From an uncultured Lachnospiraceae bacterium (GTDB lineage Bacteria; Bacillota; Clostridia; Lachnospirales; Lachnospiraceae), in contig CACZBZ010000005.1 of NCBI GenBank assembly GCA_902779505.1, positions 28,659 to 92,658 on the forward strand: a stretch of 64,000 nucleotides of DNA. The letters run 5' to 3'. Under the pieces are notes generated by a model. That model did no database searches. It had not been told where the DNA came from and saw only the letters and a program-made list of their open reading frames with translations. Each line of letters opens with the position of its first letter. Within the stretch, counting starts at the first letter, position 1. Shown one piece after another: positions 31,668 to 37,919 of this stretch. Both the position numbers and the translations under genes were made by a program.

Positions 31668-32933
31668 TTATTTTTTTTTCGAAATAATCCACCAGAGGAC
31701 TTCATGTATATTCATCGTTCCATCTGCTTTTATAAAAGGACGGAAATTGAAGTTTGCCGGGATCATAATAGTAGTTGTCAGTCCTCCTGAAACTGATATC
31801 TTAACGTTATATGCAAACCTGCTATTCTGCAAAAGAAGACTTACAGTGGCAGGGTCAAGTATATCAATATTTGTCATATCAAGATCCACTGCACTGCGGG
31901 CGTTTACTTCCCTATCACTCGTCTTTGCACTGAGCAATGTTTGGATTTCAGCCAGCTGTGCACTCGCTGCCTGCTGTTTCGCAGCCTTCTCGGCTGCTAT
32001 GGTTGCAGCGGCATTTTCCGGAGTCAGTGAAATATCCGTAAGGAATGCCTTCATCGCATCGTCGTCATAACGACTAAGTGTCATAAACTCAGCGGACGTC
32101 TCAGTAAGAGCCGATGTAGCCTTCGGTGGGAACACGCCATTGCTACACACTGCTCTGATGAATTCGAACCCGACATACCCGGTATAATCGACCATCTCCT
32201 TTAACGTATACTTGTAGTTTGCCGGAATAAATATCTCCTTAGGCTCACCATTATATATATATTTGATTGTTACAGGAACGCCCCTCTTTATCAACTCGTC
32301 CAACGCACTACATGTGGCAAAATCAAAGCTAATCCAGTTTCCTGCTTCTATCGTAAGTCCATTCTTCTTAAGTCCGGCCAGAGCTGTTGGATTATTAGCG
32401 ACACTCTGCATCTGTCTTAATTTATCCTTCACCTGAGACTTAACGCCATCCAAAAAATACTTCATAGTCTGATCAGGATTGGTTCCCTCTTCCTCAGGAG
32501 GATTCGGCGTAGAAGTCGGTCCCGTATCAGAAACTGTAGTAGGGGTATGTTCTGTTTCATCCTCAACAAAATGCGCGGTTATGTTCACGCTCTTTGCCGG
32601 CATAGTGAAAGAAATGGATGAACTATCTGTAGCTCCCGAAATATTAATATCTGTTTCAGATTCTATTGTCCAATTTCCGAATCTGTAGTTGGCTGCCGGA
32701 TTTGCAACAATGCTTATTGATGCACCGGCTTCTACATCATACGGCGAAGAACTTACCGGAGCTTCAGCATTTATCGTAACGTCAAAAGTACCGCCTCCAT
32801 TTCCATCAACAGCGACAGTTAATGTATAACCCGTAACTGCTTCAACATCTGCCTTATTAAACAGACTCAGCACAATCCCTAATGCCGTCACAAGCATCAG
32901 TCTCATTAAAATTTGCCTTGTTTTTCCCATCAT
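31668..32933 (-). CDS. secreted protein with InlB B-repeat-like domain and a duplicated C-terminal module
   Basis: About 421 aa. A basic and hydrophobic N terminus (MMGKTRQILMRLMLVTALG) looks like a signal peptide ending near ADVEA. Residues about 35-125 resemble a B-repeat/beta-grasp surface domain (NYRFGNWTIES, SFTMPAKSVNITAHF). A Pro/Thr/Glu-rich linker follows (TPTTVSDTGPTSTPNPPEEE). The rest contains two copies of a module with the pattern V-x-I, about ten residues, then IPAN: VPVTIKYIYNGEPKEIFIPAN near 215 and YNVKISVSGGLTTTIMIPAN near 375. Between them lies an Ala-rich coiled segment. No sorting signal is seen. The start at 32933 is chosen for its GAGAG site; an ATG at 32969 lacks one. 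Likely extracellular, role unknown. Confidence 0.72.
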   Translation of the reverse strand: MMGKTRQILMRLMLVTALGIVLSLFNKADVEAVTGYTLTVAVDGNGGGTFDVTINAEAPVSSSPYDVEAGASISIVANPAANYRFGNWTIESETDINISGATDSSSISFTMPAKSVNITAHFVEDETEHTPTTVSDTGPTSTPNPPEEEGTNPDQTMKYFLDGVKSQVKDKLRQMQSVANNPTALAGLKKNGLTIEAGNWISFDFATCSALDELIKRGVPVTIKYIYNGEPKEIFIPANYKYTLKEMVDYTGYVGFEFIRAVCSNGVFPPKATSALTETSAEFMTLSRYDDDAMKAFLTDISLTPENAAATIAAEKAAKQQAASAQLAEIQTLLSAKTSDREVNARSAVDLDMTNIDILDPATVSLLLQNSRFAYNVKISVSGGLTTTIMIPANFNFRPFIKADGTMNIHEVLWWIISKKK

Positions 32934-32979
32934 AAGAAGTACTCTCTCTTTACACTGACTATTTCTCATTATGCTTTAA

Positions 32980-33339: not shown

Positions 33340-34566
33340 CTATACCCTGGCTAAATTGGGATAAGTCTTCTTGAGTTCTTCTTTATTGTCATACATCATA
33401 TTATCTACTATTTGCATAGCGTCATCGATGCTTTCATTCTGAACAATGTAGTAAGCACTGGCCACAGAAAAATGATAATCCAGCTCTATATTCTTTTCCG
33501 CTATTTTATCTTTGAACTTCTGATACATAGCCTCAAAATCACTCTGATTGTTCCCAATACTGATAATACAGAATTCATCCCCACCGATACGATAGCAGTT
33601 TTCTTTATCCGAAAAAGTTTCTTTTATGATCAATGCAACATTTTTAATTGCCTCGTCACCTGTATTGTGTCCAAAGGTGTCATTCAAATATTTCAGAAAA
33701 TTCAAATCAGCCATAAGAATTATGATCATATTCTGTTCTTTGATTTTTCTCATATTTGTTCTTAAATCTAACTCTTTTTCCTCAAATGCGGTACGATTTA
33801 ATAATTCTGTCATTTGATCCACATGGGCAAGTTCATAGTATTTTTTATTCAGCTTCTCTAACTCTGATTTTGTTGTTTCCAACTCCTCGAGAGTAGTTTG
33901 CAATTTTGCATAGTCCGGTGTTTCCAAAGAAAAGAGCGTAACCAACATAATCAGTGAAGCACCAAGCATGATGATTAATATGTTCTGGAAAAATAAGACC
34001 TGCAGTATTATTGGCAGAACATAGAGTGATATAATAATGGACCCATATATAATCTGTGATTTTCCAAGTATTCTTATGTTTATAAACATGGATATTCCTG
34101 CCATTACAATAAACAGGATCGAAACGAAATGCATAACATAGAAATAGTCACCATGAGTATATATATTATCTTTCGTGATATAAAAGAAAAATCCCCCAAA
34201 CATATTGGCAATGATTGCAATTTCCTCTATTATCAGCATTATCAGCTTTGCTTTTAGAAAGGGCTTTTTCCCGTTTTCAGGTATGATGTGATAATCAATA
34301 TAGGCCCCCAGCAAATAACAAAGTGCCGTACCCAAAAAGAAATATGCCGTGTTCACCAGGATATTAGTGAATCTTGAGAAGATATCATTATAGGATATTA
34401 CATACGCCGATAATATGTCGAAAGACTGAGTAAAGATCAGAATTATACTCATAATTCTGAAAAGCATATTCTTCCTGTTTCTCATCGGATATTCAATACA
34501 GGAATACACAAATATAAAAAGGACAAATATTTGTGCAGTTATTTCATATTCCACATCATATAGCAT
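33340..34566 (-). CDS. membrane-bound diguanylate cyclase (GGDEF)
   Basis: This 408-aa protein has six to eight hydrophobic segments in residues 10-215, then a coiled coil (LQTTLEELETTKSELEKLNKKY, split over 222-243), and a GGDEF domain from about 245. The catalytic motif GGDEF is intact at 328-332, and DLNFLKYLNDTFGHNTGDEA is the substrate-binding region. The inhibitory RxxD site upstream of GGDEF is not conserved (SDKE in that place), so product inhibition may be absent. It should make c-di-GMP in response to a signal at the membrane. No EAL or HD-GYP partner is in the window. It stands alone, with two direct repeats upstream. Confidence 0.88.
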   Translation of the reverse strand: MLYDVEYEITAQIFVLFIFVYSCIEYPMRNRKNMLFRIMSIILIFTQSFDILSAYVISYNDIFSRFTNILVNTAYFFLGTALCYLLGAYIDYHIIPENGKKPFLKAKLIMLIIEEIAIIANMFGGFFFYITKDNIYTHGDYFYVMHFVSILFIVMAGISMFINIRILGKSQIIYGSIIISLYVLPIILQVLFFQNILIIMLGASLIMLVTLFSLETPDYAKLQTTLEELETTKSELEKLNKKYYELAHVDQMTELLNRTAFEEKELDLRTNMRKIKEQNMIIILMADLNFLKYLNDTFGHNTGDEAIKNVALIIKETFSDKENCYRIGGDEFCIISIGNNQSDFEAMYQKFKDKIAEKNIELDYHFSVASAYYIVQNESIDDAMQIVDNMMYDNKEELKKTYPNLARV

Positions 34567-34786: not shown

Positions 34787-35692
34787 CTATTCCAATAAGT
34801 ATTTTTTTATTTTTGCCGTCATAAGCTTAGTATCAAATGCAGAGTGTTCTCCCTCGATTGTTATTATGAGTCCATCGCCTATTAATAAACCATTAGACTC
34901 GTACAGATTAAGCTTAGTGGCCATACTATCCCGGTATTCGGCATTATCTGCCAATCCAAAATGCTCCCAATACCATGTCCTCCTCGTTTTCATATTCAAC
35001 ACTGTGAAATCGGGATAGCAATGTGTCCCTTGCCCCAATGCAAGCCTGCTCTCGTACACATAGGGAATCTTCATATCGTATAATTTATCAGCAATTATTT
35101 TTTCGGATTTTGAACGAACAATTTCACCCCGTTCAGTATCATATCTGGTGTTCATTTCATATTCGTTCATACATCCCTGATGCATGTCATACCATTTTTC
35201 AAGAAAATCACTATCCATTAAGAATATTGGTTGAATTAGTCTCTGTTTTTCTTCCTTAAGACAGCCATATACATGGTACAGCTTCATGGTATCACTAATG
35301 GATGGCACATCATCCGATGCAAGTAGCCTGTCTGTCTCACTGATCAACAGTTCATAATAGTCACGCGCGGCCAGCTGTTCGGCATATTCAATTCGAGCTG
35401 ATGAAATATATTGCTTCCTGCTTTGGTGCGTTCTTGAATAACTATAATACTGTGTGTAGCCATTGCTTTTTGATATTATCAAAGTTTCCTTGGGTAATTC
35501 ATCCAGAAGCTGACTTAATCTCTTTCTTAATGAAAGCAACTCCTTTCTTGTCATAGCCACAAATCCCCGTTCATCAATGTCGATTAGAGGTGCCATTAAG
35601 GAAATCTTCTTGTTGGATTGGATTGATTGTGAAGTCAGCCTGAATGAAGTATCTTCAAGTTGTGTTGGATATGCCTGTGCGTATGTGCTCAT
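34787..35692 (-). CDS. stand-alone PD-(D/E)XK nuclease-like protein
   Basis: This 301-aa protein has a helical N-terminal part (residues 45-150; a long TRKELLSLRKRLSQLLDEL helix) and a C-terminal restriction-endonuclease-like fold. The expected residues are in order: E197 in SKSEKIIADKL, D228 in YPDFTVLN, E243 in WYWEHFG and K260 in SMATKLNLY. The YPDF-WEHFG pairing is seen in nuclease domains attached to some helicases, but no helicase is fused or adjacent here. The start at 35692 has AGGAG seven bases before it. It has its own promoter and a repeat-rich leader, and it lies beside the 85-bp palindrome array. A defence or DNA-repair role is possible; I cannot name the family. Confidence 0.7.
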   Translation of the reverse strand: MSTYAQAYPTQLEDTSFRLTSQSIQSNKKISLMAPLIDIDERGFVAMTRKELLSLRKRLSQLLDELPKETLIISKSNGYTQYYSYSRTHQSRKQYISSARIEYAEQLAARDYYELLISETDRLLASDDVPSISDTMKLYHVYGCLKEEKQRLIQPIFLMDSDFLEKWYDMHQGCMNEYEMNTRYDTERGEIVRSKSEKIIADKLYDMKIPYVYESRLALGQGTHCYPDFTVLNMKTRRTWYWEHFGLADNAEYRDSMATKLNLYESNGLLIGDGLIITIEGEHSAFDTKLMTAKIKKYLLE

Positions 35693-35721
35693 ACTATTCT
35701 CCTGATATTGATGTGAATCTT

Positions 35722-35760
35722 GCATTGCATAGTTGGTGCAACGAAAGGTTGGCGCAATGC
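35722..35760 (-). promoter_or_regulatory. inverted repeat in the nuclease gene leader
   Basis: GCATTGC (35722-35728) and GCAATGC (35754-35760) are inverted around 25 bases that hold two near-copies of GTTGGYGCAA. Together with the CAATGCAAGAT direct repeats flanking them, this is a dense regulatory-looking leader between the promoter and the ATG of the nuclease gene. Confidence 0.45.
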
Positions 35761-35773
35761 GATATGTACCCAT

Positions 35774-35802
35774 AATGTACGATATAGATCTTGCATTGTC
35801 AA
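35774..35802 (-). promoter_or_regulatory. promoter of the nuclease gene
   Basis: Read on the minus strand, TTGACA (35797-35802) is a perfect -35 and TACATT (35774-35779) a fair -10, with 17 bases between them. The start lies about 75 bases before the ATG. Confidence 0.6.
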
Positions 35803-35916
35803 GAGGTTTTCTGACAAGCAAGCATATTTCTACAGGTCAAGCAGCCTTATGGCACCCCCCTGACAAGTCGCACTCTGGCAAACCGCACCCTGGCAAGCCA
35901 CCTCCTTGCTAAGGCT

Positions 35917-36466
35917 TTACGGAACAGCAGTCACAATTCCACTGGTTGTTCCGTAAAATCCAATCAGAATCTACCAAGTAAGTGGCTTCCTGCCGATGAT
36001 TTTACGGAACAGGCTCCACTATTCACGCAAGTGTTCCGTAATATGAAGGCCTGCGAAGCCTGATCAGGTTACAACAACAGTCAGAATTACGGAACAGCAG
36101 CCACAATTCCACTGGTTGTTCCGTAAATTCCACTCCAAATCTACTAGGCTTGTGGCTTCCTCACGGTGATTTTACGGAACAGGCTCCACTATTCACGCAA
36201 GTGTTCCGTAATATTGAGGCCAGCAAGGCTTGATTAAGCTGCAACATAAGTCAGAATTACGGAACAACAACTACAATTCCACTGGTTGTTCCGTAAAATC
36301 CACTCCAAATCTACCGGCCATGAGACTTCCTGCCTGTGATTTTACGGAACAACCACCACGATTCAAGCAAATGTTCCGTAATATGATGGCCTGCGAAGCT
36401 TGATCAGGTTACAACAACAGCCAGAATTACGGAACAGGCACCGGGATTCAGGCATGTGTTCCGTAA
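35917..36466. repeat. array of seven palindromic elements at an exact 85-bp period
   Basis: Each unit is TTACGGAACA, 20 bases, TGTTCCGTAA (40 bp). Units start at 35917, 36002, 36087, 36172, 36257, 36342 and 36427, always 85 bp apart. Arms are invariant in all seven. Loops alternate between two types: A (with TCCACTGGT) at 35917, 36087 and 36257, and B (with ATTCACGCAAG or similar) at 36002, 36172 and 36342; the seventh is mixed. The 45-bp separators also alternate, so the higher repeat is 170 bp, about 3.2 copies. 85 bp is close to eight helical turns, placing all units on one face of the DNA. No coding frame explains it. It lies between the nuclease gene promoter and the str-operon terminators. 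Confidence 0.9.
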
Positions 36467-36728: not shown

Positions 36729-37919
36729 CTATTCGATGATAGTAGCAACTCTACCAGAACCTACTGTTCTACCACCCTCACGGATAGCAAATGTAAGACC
36801 CTGCTCCATAGCGATAGGATGGATGAGCTCGATTGTCATCTCAATGTTATCACCAGGCATGCACATCTCTGTACCTGCAGGAAGGTTACATACACCAGTT
36901 ACGTCTGTTGTTCTGAAGTAGAACTGAGGACGATAGTTGTTGAAGAAAGGAGTATGACGACCACCTTCATCCTTTGTAAGAACGTAAACCTGAGCAGTAA
37001 ACTTTGTATGACATGTTACTGTACCGGGCTTAGCAAGGATCTGTCCACGCTCGATATCTGTTCTCTGGATACCACGGAGAAGAACACCGATGTTATCACC
37101 TGCATATGCCTCATCAAGAAGCTTTCTGAACATCTCGATACCTGTTACAACTGACTTCTGTGTCTCTTCCTTGATACCAACGATTTCAACTTCTTCAGAC
37201 ATCTTAAGAGTACCACGCTCTACTCTACCTGTAGCAACTGTACCACGACCTGTGATTGAGAATACGTCCTCTATTGGCATAAGGAAAGGCTTGTCTGTCT
37301 CTCTCTGAGGATCAGGGATGTATGAATCTACGGTATCCATGAGCTCCATGATCTTGTCGCCCCACTCACCGTTGGGATCTTCAAGAGCCTTAAGAGCTGA
37401 ACCCTTAACGATAGGACATCCTTCGAAACCATACTCTTCAAGCTGCTCTGTAACTTCCATCTCAACGAGCTCGATAAGCTCAGGATCATCAACCATATCA
37501 CACTTGTTAAGGAATACTACGATGTAAGGAACACCTACCTGACGAGAAAGGAGGATATGCTCCTTTGTCTGAGCCATAACACCGTCTGTTGCAGCAACAA
37601 CGAGGATAGCACCATCCATCTGAGCTGCACCTGTGATCATGTTCTTAACGTAGTCAGCATGTCCGGGACAGTCAACGTGTGCGTAATGTCTCTTCTCTGT
37701 CTGGTACTCAACGTGAGCTGTAGAGATTGTGATACCTCTTTCTCTCTCTTCGGGAGCCTTATCGATATTCTCGAAATCTACCTTTTCATTTCCGGCTACT
37801 CTCTCAGCAAGAACCTTTGTGATTGCAGCTGTAAGAGTTGTCTTACCATGGTCTACGTGTCCGATAGTACCAATGTTACAATGAGGCTTATTACCTCTCT
37901 CGAAATGTGCCTTTGCCAT
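36729..37919 (-). CDS. tuf: elongation factor Tu
   Basis: This 396-aa GTPase delivers aminoacyl-tRNA to the ribosome. G1 [10 protein letters not shown] is near 20, G3 DCPGHADY near 81, G4 NKCDM near 136 and G5 SALKAL near 174. Domains 2 and 3 follow and end in [12 protein letters not shown]. Codon use is strongly biased, with repeated preferred codons, as expected for a highly expressed gene. It is last in rpsL-rpsG-fusA-tuf, 149 bases after fusA, with a hairpin in between and two terminators after it. Confidence 0.99.

Follow-up and report, generated by a model that had tools for sequence, protein, structure and literature searches.

Iterons, centromere-like sites such as sopC, and the ends of Tn7 are phased regions in which several sites are bound by protein. 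Among nucleases, the recombination-promoting Rpn and Transposase_31 proteins are of the PD-(D/E)XK type and sometimes occur in multiple copies. REPtrons, as outlined in parts of three reports, are clusters of palindromes beside RAYT genes, with one flavour of palindrome for each enzyme (PMC3116915, PMC3733652, PMC8266576). The locus described here resembles the REP, BIME and REPIN-RAYT systems of those same parts in that palindromes lie beside the gene for a DNA-processing enzyme, the palindrome is family-specific, copies are dispersed between genes and the clusters are ordered in tandem. It differs from them in its enzyme, which is PD-(D/E)XK-like, whereas RAYTs are HuH/Y1 proteins. With iterons, sopC and the Tn7 ends it shares regularly spaced, repeated sites that are probably bound by protein.

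We define "the window" as the whole 64,000-nucleotide stretch of an uncultured Lachnospiraceae genome that was analysed. It carries seven exact copies of TTACGGAACA-N20-TGTTCCGTAA, each a 40-bp palindrome, with a loop of exactly 20 bp and a separator of exactly 45 bp in every unit (Table 1). The initial annotation had described seven palindromes at an exact 85-bp spacing, and every start-to-start interval is indeed 85 bp, about eight helical turns. A search at up to three mismatches found seven matches to the palindrome in the window and none in 100 dinucleotide shuffles. Loops and separators are of two alternating types, and the 170-bp super-repeat attributed to them is real, with three copies at 86% identity to the first. 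Its two kinds of separator are mutually unrelated (20-27% identity), yet each is 45 bp long. The array sits between the EF-Tu gene and the start of a gene for a 301-aa nuclease-like protein, beginning 225 bp upstream of that gene's start codon. A short imperfect 15-bp tandem repeat, CCCTGGCAAACCGCA, lies just before the array at 35858-35896.

Table 1. Features of the array and its immediate surroundings (positions within the window).
Feature	Position	Strand	Remark
PD-(D/E)XK-like protein, 301 aa, likely palindrome binder	34787..35692	-	ATG at 35692, AGGAG upstream, read from sequence
Leader, nuclease start codon to array	35693..35916	.	
Array, seven 40-bp palindromes, 85-bp period	35917..36466	.	
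Palindrome 1	35917..35956	.	loop type A
Palindrome 2	36002..36041	.	loop type B
Palindrome 3	36087..36126	.	loop type A
Palindrome 4	36172..36211	.	loop type B
Palindrome 5	36257..36296	.	loop type A
Palindrome 6	36342..36381	.	loop type B
Palindrome 7	36427..36466	.	loop nearest type B (65-70% identity)
EF-Tu gene	36729-37919	minus	named by eye

Across the three copies of the 170-bp unit, none of the 40 arm columns varies, against 41 of the 130 columns in loops and separators (Fisher p = 3.6e-6). The earlier impression that arms and phase seem to be under selection is supported. Duplication clearly relates the units of an array to one another, and a functionless palindrome copied in tandem by neutral processes would give such relatedness. 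Invariant arms amid so many variable columns argue against that origin, which we regard as scarcely credible; two further observations against it are given below with the spacings and the arms.

A regular array adjoining a nuclease gene also recalls CRISPR, or another guide array in which loops and separators would serve as guides. CRISPR is disfavoured: the window array has inverted, alternating arms and recurring loops and separators, not direct repeats with unique spacers. Inspection by eye of the open reading frames flanking the array revealed no cas gene. A guide array of any kind is very improbable here, since arm orientation alternates, the loops and separators of the window fall into two recurring types, and the array had no blastn match among 50,697 phage records at E 0.01.

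The neighbouring protein contains RSKSE...PDF...EHxG motifs, which we, like the initial annotation, read as those of a PD-(D/E)XK nuclease. In 68 aligned sequences R193, S194, K195, E197, D228, E243 and H244 are invariant, and the active site of the family therefore looks kept; K260 is nearly invariant. The window protein matched no Pfam and no NCBIfam family, and among the 68 aligned members no Pfam family was matched by more than one (the 10 families listed had one member apiece). Like Rpn and Transposase_31 proteins the family is PD-(D/E)XK-like and sometimes multicopy, but the Pfam models for such proteins match none of the 68 aligned sequences at E 0.01. A Pfam scan covered the four proteins nearest the array; unlike the proteins of iterons, sopC and Tn7 ends, the neighbour is no known Rep, ParA/ParB or TnsB by Pfam, and the arms vary between paralogues of the family. 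A PDB profile search with the window protein gave a lone match that is not credible (E 0.42). The window also encodes a protein with a divergent InlB B-repeat domain (31668-32969, minus strand) and, between its gene and the nuclease gene, a GGDEF protein (33340-34566, minus strand).

The C-terminal part of the window protein is homologous to the end of PADLOC PDC-S68 proteins (E 1.2e-29). This domain is shared with the PDC-S68 candidate defence proteins and with helicase-fused PD-(D/E)XK domains; what differs here is that it forms part of a stand-alone protein, some 270-300 aa long, which has an N-terminal part of its own and a palindrome array. Matches in seven plasmid records were confined to the C-terminal part, and those in eight loci on viral contigs each ran from residue 171 onward only. 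In the plasmid matches (H1-H7) the domain lies within proteins annotated as RecD-like, RecQ or AAA family ATPase. Two unannotated faecal phage records also match, one of them across 77% of the window protein at 33% identity. Relatives were found in 9 of 20 genomes of the genus, its own genome counted, in 115 of 299 genomes of the family at E 0.001, some of them weakly, and in at least 576 confirmed stretches of GTDB contigs. The best 80 of these at least 576 stretches were kept for the locus set, and they include records titled Treponema and Fibrobacter. The hosts are bacteria of gut and rumen, in records titled Lachnospiraceae, Butyrivibrio, Pseudobutyrivibrio, Treponema and Fibrobacter.

Arrays accompany these relatives. 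Several of those in the genus lie beside arrays of alternating inverted arms, and the arms differ from one another: TACGGAAG, GGTAGGACT, CCTTGGTATT, ATACATCGG, CGTGGGCCTG and AACAGATAAT. Linkage was counted in 123 loci (80 from GTDB, 28 from the family, 14 from the genus, and the window), using flanks with at least 200 bases available. The family set comprises 28 of 30 loci, L163 and L164 being left out as repeats of genes already included, and the whole set retains some redundancy: L064 and L127 are apparently the same contig, and there are near-duplicates such as L085/L086 and L107/L109. Chains of at least four alternating arms, as exact 8-mers within 1.5 kb, were present upstream in 34 of 121 flanks and downstream in 8 of 121, in none of 1,210 shuffles, and in 2 of 153 windows at a distance of 1.5-3 kb, where one of the two is L076's second array. 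With one mismatch allowed and a chain of at least five, 66 of 123 loci have an array within 1.5 kb, compared with 0 of 242 shuffled flanks, in which the largest chain was three; the adjacent PD-(D/E)XK-like gene, raised by the initial annotation as a possible partner, is supported as a real one. Such chains were present in 3 of 153 distant windows, two of them carrying the locus's own arm, and 57 of the 123 loci had no array at this relaxed threshold. On the upstream side the median distance from array to matched stretch is 156 bp (n = 55). The linkage is seen among loci whose titles name Lachnospiraceae, Treponema and Fibrobacter, and positive loci in records not marked as MAGs come from Pseudobutyrivibrio sp. 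49 (L091), Butyrivibrio hungatei NK4A153 (L107) and XBD2006 (L153), and Butyrivibrio sp. M55 (L132).

The placement of the arrays bears on the possibility that they are the ends of a complex transposon, with the nuclease as all or part of the transposase, the arrays as multi-site terminal binding regions and lone arrays as non-autonomous copies. In a looser count made without a shuffle control, arm chains occur within 3 kb to either side at 13 of the 66 positive loci, and L076 has two arrays in opposite orientation, as such ends might. In that same count, however, 44 of the 66 loci have chains upstream only and 9 downstream only, and an unsystematic look noticed no clean element boundary or target duplication. 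We consider transposon ends distinctly unlikely.

The same core arms recur in the genome from which the window was taken (G000, a draft of 115 contigs), where two further arrays were found: contig 32 has six units, a single one of which departs from the others at an arm base, and contig 5 begins with five. Their start-to-start spacings are 84-86 bp and all of their separators are 45 bp; the exact 85-bp period is a property of the window array only. Loops and separators of these arrays are not clearly related to the window's own, the best identities being at most 0.07 above shuffled. Among 19 congeners, two (G005 and G008) have the core arms TACGGAAC, at spacings of 73-75, 83-84 and 137-138 bp wherever there is more than one palindrome. 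Variable spacing in related genomes had been named in advance as an observation that would count against a fixed phase. Such variation does occur, but it consists mostly of steps of whole turns, which strengthens the case for phasing. At three loci of G005 and G008 (L065, L066, L068) the first full palindrome after a gene is followed by GTTTTTTG and could act as an intrinsic terminator. Arrays or palindromes also lie near contig ends, within about 700 bases (G000 C5:640; G005 C3, C29, C64, C81 and C118; G008 C30), which suggests that arrays break short-read assemblies and are hence under-counted.

The distance between palindromes follows the pitch of the double helix. Spacings fall into classes with means of 52.7, 63.3, 73.3, 84.8 and 95.0 bp. 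Among the 50 array rows surveyed, L123 and L176 yielded fewer than two palindromes. When one modal value was taken per array, leaving out L137, which has no modal value, and arrays sharing another's arm, 33 arrays gave R = 0.90 at 10.5 bp with a best period of 10.61, a value reached by none of 5,000 jittered sets. A hold-out set of 23 arrays, found by a relaxed search and not used in forming the helical idea, gave R = 0.93 and a best period of 10.55 (again 0 of 5,000 jittered sets); L119, L160 and L192 had been dropped from its 26 loci, and L109 and L112 share the arm of L107. R is still 0.88 after removal of the largest spacing class. Removing similar arms (repeats of the L109/L112 kind and arms judged similar by eye) left 28 and 20 arrays, with R of 0.89 and 0.93 and best periods of 10.64 and 10.48. 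Secondary, non-modal spacings scatter more widely (34 values, R 0.66), and the hold-out list before filtering does so too (50 values, R 0.69, best period 10.50).

A regression through all spacing classes of 48 arrays, merged into 52 points, had a slope of 10.55, an intercept of -0.23 and a residual standard deviation of 0.80; some two-unit gaps (104, 107) were kept in it, and values of 127.5 (L118) and 169 (L005) were left out. Shifts of spacing inside single arrays are often close to whole turns: 74 to 105 in L120, 63 to 84 in L150, and 84 to 95 in L161. Because the intercept is near zero and the period is the helical repeat of B-DNA, the palindromes keep to a single face of the double helix. 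The earlier view that helical turns matter is upheld by this quantisation at about 10.5 bp. The sharing of helical spacing classes by arrays with unrelated arms is the first of the further observations against neutral duplication.

Folding into hairpins, in single-stranded DNA or in RNA, is another way in which palindromes might act, as REP or BIME elements, terminators or processed RNAs. Six of the window's seven units were put through RNA folding and can form hairpins (z -1.8 to -5.8), a result that is expected of near-perfect palindromes and with which a hairpin role is compatible, and in some arrays of G005 and G008 a T run comes directly after the opening palindrome. Several lines of evidence nonetheless argue that the arms are half-sites in duplex DNA. 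In 272 palindromes, counted with at most one mismatch per arm, both arms are at consensus in 207; of 71 arm deviations just 4 are compensated by a change in the other arm, while 39 are uncompensated non-GU changes and 28 uncompensated changes of the G-T type. Four of eight palindromes at two G008 loci (L068 and L069) pair an TACGGAAC arm with an TACGGAAG arm, a combination that makes a mismatched stem but two good half-sites. An Rfam scan of the window gave seven matches, all to tRNA, and no family at gathering score in the array. No Y1 transposase was found in the incomplete assemblies G000, G005 and G008. The phasing, too, is a property of the double strand and stands against hairpins. The suggestion of a hairpin-forming array recognised by the nuclease thus finds little favour in these data, and we judge hairpins quite improbable as the working form. 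Since arm changes are rarely compensated and spacing is helically quantised, the palindromes are probably sites in duplex DNA, aligned along a single face of the helix, to which a protein binds, most likely the one encoded next to them. Both G008 arrays (L068 6666-6924, L069 2205-2462) have the same order of units: an TACGGAAC pair, two mixed pairs, and an TACGGAAG pair.

Arm sequence and protein sequence vary together. Among 41 array-bearing loci (820 pairs; L176 left out), arm similarity is correlated with protein identity (Mantel r 0.37), a value reached in none of 5,000 permutations. At 60% protein identity or more, pairs have a mean of 7.4 of 8 arm bases in common (7 pairs); those at 45-60% share 4.8 (22 pairs), and those below 45% share 3.5-4.1. 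In 11 comparisons across loci of arrays with the same or similar arms, loops and separators reach identities at most 0.09 above shuffled in their best matches, and separator lengths are mostly unequal. With the loops and separators of same-arm arrays near the shuffled level, we conclude that arms are kept while the intervening sequence is lost, the second of the observations opposed to neutral duplication. The adjacent protein is a natural candidate for the cause of this conservation. The covariation may come in part from shared descent of whole loci. G005 has TACGGAAC palindromes, but the sole relative found in its incomplete assembly is near an TTTAGTCCTACC motif instead.

In some genomes the palindromes are dispersed. 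REPtrons are marked by many dispersed copies, and copies are numerous in two genomes and few in some others. G017 has 156 TACATCGG palindromes, at several loci at least and on at least three contigs, compared with none in three congeners and none for the reversed pattern, and G000 has 17 at three places. In the G017 arrays examined, 68 of 74 palindromes are perfect in both 8-bp arms, a proportion due partly to selection by the search, which was limited to two arm mismatches. These arrays resemble diverged copies of an ordered mosaic. At L202-L207 and L076 this is part of a larger mosaic with recurring non-palindromic blocks, of which, for example, GCAACGCGGGTTGCTTAAAT precedes several arrays and TTTCCCGCG...CCCCGCGC follows several.

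One array of G017 lies in a 740-bp gap beside prs. The gap between prs and the aligned neighbour is 19-332 bp in 12 of 13 congeners examined and 905 bp in G001, where it apparently holds another gene; both arm orientations occur within 1.5 kb of prs in none of 19 congener loci, and seven copies of either orientation are there in G017. A mobile element with arrays at its ends could also leave an array that only G017 has beside prs. Spread of the palindromes is thus possible, but it is not universal, because the second family of G017, CGTGGGCC, has eight palindromes, all eight at their own nuclease, and the genome of L153 has seven, five of them at the nuclease.

Arrays far from a nuclease gene, as in G000 and G017, would also be expected if some other host protein, whether a regulator, a nucleoid protein or a partition protein, bound the phased array and the nuclease gene were merely a neighbour or a user of it; any cooperative binder would fit the phasing and the half-site logic. 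That explanation must contend with the arms of paralogues within one genome, which differ (TACATCGG and CGTGGGCC in G017) and track protein similarity, and with the linkage of array and nuclease across loci in records titled Lachnospiraceae, Treponema and Fibrobacter. We regard it as unlikely.

The reading that we consider probable, on present sequence comparisons, is that the array is a row of double-stranded binding sites for the adjacent PD-(D/E)XK-like protein, gene and array together forming a two-part element. A cooperative DNA-binding protein, one of the possibilities raised by the initial annotation, is the best reading of the array. The protein would recognise a half-site of 8-10 bp (TTACGGAAC in the window), and two inverted half-sites about 20 bp apart would bind a dimer. 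Successive dimers, set whole helical turns apart, would stack along the same side of the DNA, each helping the next to bind. The half-site would change together with the protein, and sites would multiply and spread within the same genome by a logic like that of REPtrons, with another enzyme and double-stranded sites; nuclease activity may drive this amplification or spread. The gain to the element or its host may be self-regulation, site-directed amplification of the REPtron kind, or a chromosomal platform. Our preference is for an element of two parts that keeps up its own sites and at times spreads them, since both the linkage and the covariation extend across wide taxonomic distance while high copy numbers occur in single lineages.

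This system would work in part as a REPtron does, but we do not file it as one, because neither the GTAG/CGTC tag nor the Y1 enzyme was found when looked for in the window and its genome. The tag is at the border of none of the seven window palindromes on either strand; elsewhere, GTAG occurs inside the G004 arm GGTAGGACT and CGTC starts the L093 arm CGTCCGTA. G017 has two Y1_Tnp matches, and a distance of about 18 kb separates the closer one from a nuclease gene. Loops here are about 20 bp, and those listed for GTAG and CGTC repeats are 2-20 and 4-5 bp (Table 1, PMC3733652). CGTC-type REPs, whose hosts in the same source include Spirochaetes, were set aside on account of the loops of 4-5 bp and rare clusters given there (PMC3733652). 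Unlike REP sites, the sites here seem to behave as duplex half-sites, and their spacing is helically quantised; the word "helical" is absent from the main text of PMC3733652 and PMC3116915.

Searches of titles and the starts of abstracts in the open-licence PMC literature found no description of such a gene-array element, which we call undescribed by these searches alone. Arrays beside about half of the relatives examined, with palindromes that vary between families, point to a two-part genetic element. Somewhat short of an even chance, and so put forward tentatively, is the fuller proposal of an undescribed class of such elements, in which a cooperative PD-(D/E)XK protein acts on helically locked palindromes, the site code diversifies with the family, chromosomal arrays are seeded by the element, and arms are selected as binding platforms. 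The phasing predicts that binding would be lost when 5 bp are inserted and regained at 10 bp. Natural variants, each with a protein matched to its half-site, would provide a large set for learning a DNA-recognition code. If the proposal is true, a system like the REPtron has been built on an unrelated class of enzyme, with double-stranded, helically phased sites.
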